Below, piece after piece: positions 29,087-32,384 of a stretch of 64,000 bases of DNA. Positions within the stretch are counted from its first letter, which is position 1. Each line of letters starts with the position of its first letter. The notes beneath the pieces are model-generated. The model was not told the origin of the DNA, did not search any database, and saw only the letters and a list, made by a program, of their open reading frames with translations. Made by a program: the position numbers and the translations under genes. The stretch is from Nocardioides marmorisolisilvae (GTDB lineage: Bacteria > Actinomycetota > Actinomycetes > Propionibacteriales > Nocardioidaceae), in NCBI RefSeq assembly GCF_003725775.1, contig NZ_RJSG01000002.1, positions 1,544,804-1,608,803 on the forward strand, written 5' to 3'.

Positions 29087-29872
29087 ATGAGCCTCCTCAT
29101 CCACGACGAGAACCGGGTCCGCACCCTGACCCTGGACCGGCCCGACGCGCTGAACGCCTTCAACGAGGCCCTGTACGACGCGACCGCGGAGGCTCTCCTC
29201 GACGCTGCCGCGGACCCCACCGTCGCGGTGGTGCTGCTCACCGGCAACGGACGCGCGTTCAGCGCCGGAACCGACCTGCTCGAGATGCACCAGCTCGCCA
29301 CCAACCCGGACTTCGCGCGCGGCAAGCACGGGTTCCTCGGCCTGATCGACGCCCTGGTGGCGTTCCCCAAGCCGCTGGTCTGCGCGGTCAACGGGCTCGG
29401 CCTGGGCATCGGCGCCACCATCCTCGGGTTCGCCGACCTCGCCTTCATGTCGACCACGGCGAAGCTCAAGTGCCCGTTCACCAGCCTCGGCGTGGCTCCC
29501 GAGGCGGCGTCGAGCTATCTGTTCCCGCAGCTGCTCGGCCGCCAGAACGCCGCCTGGATGCTCCTCTCCGCCGAGTGGGTCGGTGCGGCCGAGGCACACG
29601 AGATGGGCCTGGTCTGGAAGGTCTGCGAGCCCGACGACCTCCTGCCCACCGCACGGAAGCACGCCGAGCTCCTCGCTGCCCGCCCGATCTCCAGCCTGAT
29701 CGCCGTCAAGCGGACGATGGTCGAGCCGGTGCGGGCCGAGATCGCGGCTGCGCGCGAGCGTGAGAACGCTGCGTTCGCCGAGCTGATGGGCGGACCGGCC
29801 AACCTCGAGGCCCTGACCGCGTTCGCCGAGGGCCGCGAACCCGACTTCACCAACCTGCCCGAGGGTTGGTGA
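29087..29872 (+). CDS. Enoyl-CoA hydratase/isomerase (crotonase family)
   Basis: A 261-residue crotonase acting on CoA thioesters. The oxyanion-hole segments RAFSAGTDLLEM (near 60-71) and VNGLGLGIGAT are intact; the position of a catalytic Glu is unclear, so isomerase or hydratase cannot be separated. The KstR-like box over its promoter and the adjacent FadD19-like ligase parallel the echA19/fadD19 pair of mycobacterial sterol side-chain degradation, which is inference. The ligase start overlaps its stop. Confidence 0.87.
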   Translation: MSLLIHDENRVRTLTLDRPDALNAFNEALYDATAEALLDAAADPTVAVVLLTGNGRAFSAGTDLLEMHQLATNPDFARGKHGFLGLIDALVAFPKPLVCAVNGLGLGIGATILGFADLAFMSTTAKLKCPFTSLGVAPEAASSYLFPQLLGRQNAAWMLLSAEWVGAAEAHEMGLVWKVCEPDDLLPTARKHAELLAARPISSLIAVKRTMVEPVRAEIAAARERENAAFAELMGGPANLEALTAFAEGREPDFTNLPEGW

Positions 29873-31515
29873 ACGACGTGGTGGAGTTCAACCTCTCTCG
29901 GGTCTTCGCCACCGTCGCCGCCGCGGTCCCGGACCAGGAGGCGCTGATCTGGCGCGACCGCCGGCTCACCTACGGCCAGATGGACGCCCGCATCGACGGG
30001 GTCGCGCACCACCTCGCCGGCCTCGGCCTGGGTCGCACCACCGCACGCAGCGGGCTCGCGGGCCACGAGATCGGCCAGGACACCGTCGGCCTGTACCTGC
30101 GCAACGGCAACGAGTACCCCGAGGCCATGATCGCGGCGTACCGGGCCAGGGCCGCCTCGTTCAACATCAACTACATGTACGTCGAGGAGGAGCTCGTCTA
30201 CCTCCTCAACGACGCCGGCGCGAAGGCCGTGTTCTTCCACGCCGAGTTCGCCCCGAGGATGGCCGCGATCCTCGACCAGGTGCCGACCCTGACCCATCTG
30301 ATCCAGGTCGCCGACGACTCCGGCAACGAGCTGCTGCCCGGCGCCGTGGACTACGAGACGATCGTCGGCACTCCCCCGGTCCCGCTGCCCGAGGCCCTCG
30401 GCGAGGACGCGTTCCTGCTCTACACCGGTGGGACGACCGGGATGCCCAAGGGCGTCATCTGGCGCCAGCACGACGTGTACGTCGCCGCCATGGGCGGCCG
30501 TCCGTTCGGCTCGCCGGACCCGTTCACCTCCTACGAGGAGATCGCGGAGGCCGCGCGCAATGCGAACGGGGGCATCCGACTGCTGATGACGGCCCCGTTC
30601 ATGCACGGCGCTGCGCAATGGTCGACCTTCCACATGTTCACCGGCGGCGGCAAGGTCGTTCTCCCGGACAACATCAGGAGCATGGACGCCGCCGACTGGC
30701 TGCGCACCACCGAGCGCGAGGGCGTGATGAGCATCCCGGTCGTCGGCGATGCGATGGCGCGGCCGCTGATCGACGAGATCGAGCGCGGCGACTACGACCT
30801 GTCCGGCCTGGCGGCGATCAACAACGGCGGCGCCCCGATCACCCCCGGCGTCCGGCACCGCATCCACGAGGCGCTGCCGAACATCCTGATCCTGGACGCC
30901 GTCGGCTCCTCCGAGACCGGCATCCAGATGAACCACTACTCGATGGCCGGCGCGGAGGCCGAGACGGCGGTGTTCAACCCCGAGCCCGACACCGGGGTCG
31001 TCGACGACGACCGCACCCGCTTGCTCGAGCCGGGCGAGGGCGGCGGTTGGCTCGCCCGCCGAGGCCTGGTGCCGCTGGGTTACCTCGGCGATGCCGCCAA
31101 GACCGCTGCCACCTTCCCGGTCATCGACGGGGTCCGCTACTCGGTCCCGGGCGACCGCGCCGAGCTGCTCGAGGACGGTCGGATCCGGCTCCTGGGGCGT
31201 GACGCGGTGACGATCAACTCCGGCGGGGAGAAGATCTTCGCCGAGGAGGTGGAGCGCGCGATCGCGGCGCACCCGGACATCGCCGACGTCGTCGTGGCCG
31301 GCCGCCCCTCCGAGCGCTGGGGCAGCGAGGTCATCGCGATCGTCGCTGTGCGCGCCGGGGCCGACCCGAGCGACGAGGAGCTGCTGGACGAGGCTGCCAA
31401 GCACGTGGCCCGGTACAAGCTGCCCAAGGCGATCGTGCGGCGGACCGAGATCAAGCGGTCGCCGAGCGGCAAGGCCGACTATCGATGGGCAAAGGACCAA
31501 GCCCAAGGCACCTGA
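29869..31515 (+). CDS. Acyl-CoA synthetase, FadD19-like
   Basis: An ANL-superfamily acyl-AMP/CoA ligase of 548 residues. The P-loop YTGGTTGMPKG is at about 185-195, the second motif DAVGSSETG near 345, and the hinge and lysine motif KRSPSGKADYRW at the C-terminus. The length and the C-terminal sequence agree closely with FadD19, which activates C24 sterol side-chain acids. GTG at 29869 overlaps the crotonase stop (GTGA). Its last codons lie within the first copy of the 43-bp tandem repeat described next. Confidence 0.87.
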   Translation: MNDVVEFNLSRVFATVAAAVPDQEALIWRDRRLTYGQMDARIDGVAHHLAGLGLGRTTARSGLAGHEIGQDTVGLYLRNGNEYPEAMIAAYRARAASFNINYMYVEEELVYLLNDAGAKAVFFHAEFAPRMAAILDQVPTLTHLIQVADDSGNELLPGAVDYETIVGTPPVPLPEALGEDAFLLYTGGTTGMPKGVIWRQHDVYVAAMGGRPFGSPDPFTSYEEIAEAARNANGGIRLLMTAPFMHGAAQWSTFHMFTGGGKVVLPDNIRSMDAADWLRTTEREGVMSIPVVGDAMARPLIDEIERGDYDLSGLAAINNGGAPITPGVRHRIHEALPNILILDAVGSSETGIQMNHYSMAGAEAETAVFNPEPDTGVVDDDRTRLLEPGEGGGWLARRGLVPLGYLGDAAKTAATFPVIDGVRYSVPGDRAELLEDGRIRLLGRDAVTINSGGEKIFAEEVERAIAAHPDIADVVVAGRPSERWGSEVIAIVAVRAGADPSDEELLDEAAKHVARYKLPKAIVRRTEIKRSPSGKADYRWAKDQAQGT

Positions 31516-31600
31516 GGTGCCGGGGGTGGGGGCAAAGGACCAAGCCCAGGGCACCTGAGGTGCCGGGGGTGGGGGCCAAAGACCAAGCCCAGGGCTGACC
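31487..31600 (+). repeat. About 2.6 copies of a 43-bp tandem repeat, first copy inside the FadD19-like 3' end
   Basis: Units start at 31487, 31530 and 31573 (period 43-44 bp); the third is partial and diverged. Copy 1 encodes the ligase tail KDQAQGT and the stop. Each unit contains the reverse of GGTCCTTTGCC or a close variant, which resembles the two boxes that follow. Confidence 0.8.
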
Positions 31601-31601
31601 A

Positions 31602-31635
31602 GGGACCTTTGGCCGCCAGGACGGGGCCTTTGGCC
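31602..31635 (+). promoter_or_regulatory. Two DosR/DevR-like boxes in phase
   Basis: GGGACCTTTGGCC (31602-31614) and GGGGCCTTTGGCC (31623-31635) start 21 bp apart, two helical turns, directly upstream of a promoter-like TAGTCT. The shape resembles tandem boxes of DosR/DevR-type hypoxia regulators of actinobacteria (GGGAC-centred half-sites). The regulator identity is inference. Confidence 0.45.
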
Positions 31636-31660
31636 TAGTGACCCCGCATAACGCCGCTAC

Positions 31661-31666
31661 TAGTCT
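31661..31666 (+). promoter_or_regulatory. -10 box of the candidate small RNA
   Basis: TAGTCT, with AGTGAC about 18 bp upstream as a weak -35. It predicts a start at about 31672. Confidence 0.4.
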
Positions 31667-31671
31667 GGGCA

Positions 31672-31762
31672 CAGGGAGGAACCGAGCCGCCGCGTCCCCT
31701 TACGCGAAGCTCGCCCAGCGCCCCGCACCGCCTGTACGCCAGGCTGCGGGGCGCTTCCCTTT
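31672..31762 (+). ncRNA. Candidate small RNA with C-rich hairpin loop (6C-like?)
   Basis: About 90 nt between a promoter-like TAGTCT and a strong terminator. Hairpin 1: CGAGC (31683-31687) pairs with GCTCG (31709-31713), and an inner CGCGT/ACGCG stem closes a CCCCTT loop. Hairpin 2, the terminator: AGCGCCCCGCA (31717-31727) with TGCGGGGCGCT (31745-31755), inner GCCTG/CAGGC, then TTCCCTTT. The GGGAGGAA leader and C-rich loop recall the actinobacterial 6C RNA family, but hairpin 2 does not show a second C-rich loop, so I cannot confirm the family. Confidence 0.5.
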
Positions 31763-31991
31763 CCCAGGCCGACGCTAACGCCGAAGGTGGCCGAGCCCAC
31801 ACCCGATCGGCCCCGATTGAGGATGATTCAGCCCGTTTGGGTCGATAAGGTCGAAGCGGCGCGACTCCCCCCAGCGCGCCACTGCGTACCGCCTCGTCCG
31901 TGCCCTGTAACCCCCGATCAGGACATGTCGACGAGGCGGTGCCTGTATCCAGACAGGAACCGCAGGAACTCCGGCGTACGCGCCGGGTGCG

Positions 31992-32078
31992 TCAGCGCGG
32001 TGAGCGTGGCTCCGAGAGCGTGCGGTGCAGCTGGGTGAACCCGAGAATGATGAGCACGATGCCGATGGTGAGGCCCAT
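31992..32078 (-). CDS. Possible 28-residue membrane peptide
   Basis: ATG at 32078 with AAGGAG at a suitable spacing opens a 28-codon frame reading MGLTIGIVLIILGFTQ and so on: one hydrophobic helix and a short basic tail. It resembles the start of short actinobacterial membrane proteins (DUF6131-like), possibly truncated. It lies in an otherwise gene-free stretch. Confidence 0.35.
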   Translation of the reverse strand: MGLTIGIVLIILGFTQLHRTLSEPRSPR

Positions 32079-32342
32079 GTCGGTTCTCCTTGGTCGCAGG
32101 AATCGCTTCCTGGCTACCCAGAGTAGGAACCCGGGTAACAGATACCGGGGAGGCGCGACCTGTCCAGACCAGAATTTGTACATCAGATGACTTCGTCGCC
32201 AATTGGCTCACAGATTCACTACCGTCACACCTGTGGTGCAACCGGTCCACCGTTCCCGCCTTCTCAACGGTTTTCGGGGATCACACTGACGCCGCCGGGT
32301 CCTGGACCCGTCGACGACTTTGGGGGGCGCACGACATCCGAT
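32079..32342. other. Gene-free stretch
   Basis: No coding frame is convincing. The stretch ends in a plus-strand terminator (32343-32384) that no known gene needs, so an unrecognised RNA is possible. Confidence 0.4.
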
Positions 32343-32384
32343 CGCCCGGCCTGCTGAGAAGCAGCCCGGGCGGTCTGCTTTTCC
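32343..32384 (+). terminator. Plus-strand intrinsic terminator without an assigned transcript
   Basis: CGCCCGG (32343-32349) and CCGGGCG (32366-32372) with an inner CTGCT/AGCAG stem and GAGA loop, then GTCTGCTTTTCC. The T-tract is on the plus strand. The stem could also slow the convergent MFS transcript. Confidence 0.65.

Follow-up and report, generated by a model that had tools for sequence, protein, structure and literature searches.

A clade-specific candidate small RNA behind a fadD gene, preceded by paired DosR-type boxes and most likely under DosR-family control

The locus studied here lies in a 64-kb window (the whole stretch of DNA that was analysed), and its first gene is a plus-strand open reading frame at 29866..31515 that encodes an acyl-CoA synthetase of the NCBIfam PRK07798 subfamily (678 bits), herein called fadD, with orthologues at 80–86% identity in seven other genomes of the same genus. 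A preliminary description of this DNA had placed a 43-bp repeat across the fadD stop codon, and TRF analysis agreed with this, finding at 31487–31595 the strongest tandem array of the window (period 43, 2.5 copies, 95% match, score 197). Read on the plus strand, repeat copy 1 (31487..31529) consists of the last fadD codons, the stop codon, here enclosed in a palindrome GGCACC-TGA-GGTGCC (31507–31521), and then GGGGGTGG; copy 2 (31530..31572) is 98% identical to it, and copy 3 (31573..31595), recognized by TRF and sequence comparison, is degenerate and shortened. With regard to repeat numbers in relatives, a homologous 42-bp repeat occupies this position in two of them, as two identical copies in G012 and as one copy plus part of another in G016, making three species that carry it, and the four genomes G004, G017, G019 and G021, which contain the small RNA described below, had none. 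The core of the repeat did not occur elsewhere in the three repeat-bearing genomes, and a single copy of the core was seen on another contig of G017.

Repeat copies from one genome were 96–100% alike, both here and in G012, as would follow from repeated local duplication or from concerted evolution; between species, the coding part of the repeat was 65–73% alike. As a separate observation, the 13–14 bp 3′ of the fadD stop codon (GTGCCGGGGGTGG, 31516–31529, with homologous places at L034 and L037) were 93–100% alike between the three species, above the likeness of the codons before the stop. Because species lacking the repeat end with the same FadD C-terminus (WAK-x-QA...), copy 1 represents the original gene end, with the fadD end plus spacer duplicated outwards; this is the reverse of the direction proposed in the preliminary description, where a control array had grown into the coding gene. 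The ‘inverse GGTCCTTTGCC’ motifs that it had noted within the repeat fit the DosR pattern at only 6 of 10 positions and were ruled out as DosR boxes, since they encode the conserved C-terminal residues of FadD (...WAKDQA in this genome). The fadD tree does not settle whether the duplication was a single event. The 43-bp repeat is a duplicated fadD end that left the promoter intact, and probably a by-product rather than a part of the switch.

Downstream of the repeat, also on the plus strand, we found a putative small RNA of ~90 nt (31673..31762), herein called RNA1, whose start was placed at a conserved A before GGGAGGAACC. It would begin with a 5′ tail AGGGAGGAAC (31673..31682), having an invariant GGGAGGAAC part, followed by stems P1 (CGAGC/GCTCG) and P2 (CGCGT/ACGCG) at 31683..31713, both with compensatory changes and together enclosing a C-rich loop CCCCTT (31696–31701), and then by a terminator-type hairpin AGCGCCCCGCA...TGCGGGGCGCT at 31717..31755, with two compensatory pairs. 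The segment 31665–31765 folds at −55.6 kcal/mol (z −4.6 versus shuffles). The long hairpin has a weak T tract and was not listed by the terminator scan. A small ORF within RNA1 was considered and ruled out, since no start codon follows the Shine-Dalgarno-like 5′ tail.

RNA1 stands directly behind fadD, on the same strand, in six of the eight genomes having a fadD orthologue, namely this genome, G004, G012, G017, G019 and G021. All six copies share an invariant 5′ GGGAGGAACCGRGC, a hairpin of two stems enclosing a C-rich loop, and the terminator-type hairpin. Compensatory changes were seen in three stems, six pairs together showing 13 double changes; the named structure had 92.9% of cells paired versus at most 52.4–63% in slid controls, its covariation score was 0.314 versus 0.157 in shuffles, and none of 500 shuffles reached either the pairing or the covariation score. 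Comparison across the related genomes shows the earlier suggested RNA of ~90 nt, with its terminator-type hairpin, to be real as a conserved element and to make up one unit with the boxes and the −10 described below. The loop itself varies between species (CCCCTT, TCTCCCGG or ACCCCAC), which we counted against the main model presented below. A covariance-model search of 341 genomes, in which the named records were Marmoricola and Propionibacteriales assemblies, found RNA1 in exactly six, all of one genus; that search ran with stricter filters, by which weak copies may be missed. An exact-pattern scan of contigs gave 10 stretches, four of which were true RNA1 members (L078, L079, L083 and L086), and the other six were rejected because the covariance model gave them ≤25 bits.

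Two further conserved RNA-like units follow on the plus strand. RNA2 (31844..31943) combines a −10 element GATAAGGT with two hairpins whose loops are C-rich; it was detected, with modest covariation, in seven genomes of the clade that has RNA1. In G016, fadD and RNA2 are present and RNA1 is absent, RNA2 there being located behind fadD. RNA3 (32217..32378) ends in a terminator hairpin, and its layout of GTGCAWCCGGTCCACCG..GCCTTCTCACGGTTT..terminator hairpin is kept in six genomes, with a GTCCAGACCA-like conserved element upstream. As judged by such comparisons, the region behind fadD is a small cluster of predicted RNA genes. It was also seen that the minus strand at ~32000–32079 could encode a small membrane peptide, MGLTIGIVLIILGFTQLHRTLGATL, with a good ribosome-binding site and a similar peptide in G016 (MGLTICLTIGIVLIVLGFTTMQVTQSERRIRN).

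Between the repeat and RNA1 we located, again on the plus strand, a distal palindrome GGGACCTTTGGCCG (box 1, 31602..31615, centred about −64 from the inferred start), a proximal palindrome GGGGCCTTTGGCCT (box 2, 31623..31636) that abuts the −35 region, a weak −35 element GTGACC (31638..31643; CAGACC or CAGACA, thus CAGACA-like, in relatives) and a −10 element TAGTCT (31661..31666), which is TANNNT in all six species. The earlier reading of two boxes spaced 21 bp apart before a −10 was thereby upheld, the box sequences being GGGACCTTTGGCC (31602) and GGGGCCTTTGGCC (31623). The spacer between −35 and −10 is 17 nt here and 17–18 nt over the six species, and the pair ends 7–9 nt before GGGAGG; the joint −35/−10 score at fixed offset was 42, which none of 1000 column permutations reached. 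Likewise, a GGGAC-NNNN-GTCCC-type palindrome, fitting at 8–9 of 10 positions, was found at −72 to −77 from RNA1 in 6/6 species, and the joint score of the boxes, which reached 49 at −74 and peaked again at −52/−53, was not matched in any of 3000 column permutations. In both cases the permutations preserve the relatedness of the sequences. Conservation of the boxes upstream of the RNA, lack of which had been named as grounds for abandoning the idea, was thus found for box 1 in all six species and clearly for box 2 in four; in G012 and G019 box 2 is weak or missing, which we also counted against the main model. The poor −35 is as expected of an activated promoter, and we consider it very likely that RNA1 has a promoter of its own.

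Within the 3.83-Mb genome there are three sites within one mismatch of the 13-mer GGGACCTTTGGCC, two of them being the boxes at 31602 and 31623. The third (GGGACCTTTGACC, L070:1501-1513, G000:C4:395095) lies ~140 bp before a lipoprotein-type gene and is a possible second target. A genome-wide count of the looser pattern GGGNCNNNNGNCCC gave 165 sites versus 323 for the reversed control pattern and so carried no information.

In the sister species, similarly paired palindromes, 20–23 bp apart, were found before cydA, CBS-domain and stress genes, these genes being named by inspection of translations, with Pfam matches only for Usp and cydA in G012 and for cydA in G021. Before cydA, such a pair was seen in G021 (GGGGCCAAGGTCCC with GGGACCTTTGGTCC) and also in G012 and G017; the G012 pair GGGACCATCGGCCC/GGGCCGGTCGGACC was found among sister dosR neighbourhoods and cydA upstream regions, paired boxes also precede a CBS-domain gene in G012 and a universal-stress-type gene in G004, and both G004 and G017 have GGGACCTTTGGCCT in their dosR clusters. 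Box pairs in dosR loci, with coding regions included, numbered 15 versus 6–16 in shuffled sequence and were therefore not above expectation, so that it is the position and conservation of the boxes, and not their number, that argues for the DosR type. It has been reported that the Streptomyces OsdR consensus AGGGCCGATCGGCCCT conforms to the Mycobacterium tuberculosis DevR/DosR consensus (PMC5069765), and that DosR of M. tuberculosis shows cooperative binding at multiple sites, of which the proximal overlaps the −35 (PMC5360333). By these comparisons, the boxes of the window are of the DosR type.

A DosR-family regulator is encoded in all six RNA1 species, in either of two types that both keep the recognition-helix stretch EKTVKN. 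DosR proper, with TVKNYVS or TVKNYTS, shows 53–60% identity to DosR of M. tuberculosis; the other type, a paralogue with TVKNHVT located near flagellar-type ORFs (named by inspection), shows 48–54% (52% for the paralogue of this genome). Three species (G004, G017 and G021) have both types, G012 has DosR proper twice and no paralogue at the threshold used, and this genome and G019 have the paralogue only. In these last two, DosR proper, Usp proteins and cydA were not found (G012 has eight Usp), so that these two genomes retain the operator without the usual regulon, which is reduced or gone there. Autoregulation of the paralogue through a box was considered and rejected, as no DosR-type box was found upstream of its own gene. 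Taken together, control of RNA1 by the DosR family appears likely, and the candidate reader of the boxes in this genome is most likely the conserved DosR paralogue; either that protein reads them here, or the signal has changed. We would tentatively suggest that RNA1 may have outlived the regulon, with the paralogue, in this species and in G019 that lack DosR proper, Usp and cytochrome bd, having kept the operator pair before a single RNA gene, and with RNA1 as one of its very few targets.

We infer a mechanism in which RNA1 is transcribed, DosR or its paralogue activates its promoter in response to low oxygen, and the RNA works by loop pairing. RNA1 would be transcribed from 31673 at a sigma-A-type promoter with a poor −35, and a DosR-family response regulator, in this genome most likely the paralogue and in sister species DosR proper, would bind the two palindromes (centres about −64 and −43), most likely switching the promoter on, the proximal box abutting the −35 in the same arrangement as in mycobacterial DosR-activated promoters. 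The transcript would end at the strong hairpin, at 31755–31762, and most likely act in trans, with the C-rich loop pairing with G-rich ribosome-binding sites and the invariant Shine-Dalgarno-like tail possibly making a second contact. Such pairing by the loop is conceivable, at a little below even chances. A report that the box before the DosR-dependent M. tuberculosis sRNA DrrS added no promoter activity in reporter tests (PMC5360333) was also counted against this model, as were the missing DosR proper, Usp and cydA in this genome and G019 and the lack of a box before the paralogue gene. All considered, the model as a whole, of a ~90-nt regulatory RNA at 31673–31762 having its own promoter, activated by the DosR family and acting in trans, is in our view moderately probable.

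Three other readings were weighed against it. RNA1 and its promoter could be real and the boxes could here serve a signal other than low oxygen, for example through the paralogue, as would suit the finding of a paralogue only, near flagellar-type ORFs and with Usp and cydA absent, in this genome and G019; we think this unlikely, since G012, having only DosR-proper genes (two), keeps a good box GGGACCAAAGTCAC, and the lack of a paralogue there at the threshold used makes DosR proper the likely reader in that species. It is quite improbable that the RNA1 hairpins only close the fadD transcript on its 3′ side, as terminator and stabilizing 3′ UTR, and have no promoter of their own: their position directly behind fadD on the same strand in 6/6 species, with a strong terminal hairpin, would agree with that, and read-through from fadD into the RNA1 hairpin is likely in any case, but a conserved −10/−35 of fixed spacing and two palindromes separate the stop codon from RNA1, and G016 keeps fadD without RNA1, with RNA2 behind it instead. 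Finally, that the repeat forms part of the operator, its palindromes at the stop codon being extra regulator sites and its copy number tuning RNA1, seems very improbable even though the stop codon of G004 and G017 lies inside the good distal box (GGGACC-TAG-GTCA), the second copy in G012 has a palindrome GGCACCTGAGTGCC 21 bp before box 1 and the three repeat-bearing species carry the repeat only at this place, because the palindromes of the window (GGCACCTGAGGTGCC) fit 7/10 box positions with the third G changed, a change that halves OsdR binding (PMC5069765), and lie ~52 bp from box 1, not 21 or 42, and because four species have RNA1 without the repeat.

The preferred reading, in which DosR-family control acts on RNA1, would add to the very few DosR-linked small RNAs an RNA family that is missing from Rfam and has covariation, promoter and operator evidence. 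As the species of this clade differ in having DosR proper, the paralogue only or both, they also provide a natural test as to the protein that reads a DosR box, and this in soil-type bacteria outside the mycobacteria.

Compared with known RNAs, RNA1 was matched by no Rfam family. The suggested check with RF01066 (6C) found nothing in the window at the gathering threshold, nothing around RNA1 at the relaxed limits E≤10 and E≤5, and nothing at gathering in the relatives; 6C, like RNA1, is an sRNA of actinobacteria whose hairpin loop is rich in C, but it has two such loops, whereas RNA1 has one, its second hairpin being the terminator, together with the invariant 5′ GGGAGGAACC, and we thus rejected RNA1 as a 6C RNA. 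Scr3202 (RF02833), a Streptomyces sRNA, has two hairpins with C-rich loops and in this resembles RNA2, not RNA1, although RNA2 scored 22.7 bits at a gathering cut-off of 52 and is not a member by Rfam's rule. RNA1 has no Rfam entry and is most likely a regulatory RNA specific to one clade and under DosR-family control. The DosR-dependent DrrS/MTS1338 of M. tuberculosis is, like RNA1, intergenic, with a DosR box at the −35 (overlapping it in DrrS) and stable stem-loops (PMC5360333); compared by description, DrrS carries a single clear box and its transcript is longer and processed, and RNA1 has two boxes, with the palindrome abutting the −35 present (weak in G012 and G019) and the second box upstream, at a spacing of 21, present in 6/6. 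The operators of DosR/DevR and OsdR share with the boxes described here the paired GGGAC-NNNN-GTCCC-type palindromes, with the proximal one at the −35, but those studied here stand before an RNA gene, persist in species without DosR proper and, in G004 and G017, have a distal palindrome that overlaps the fadD stop codon.
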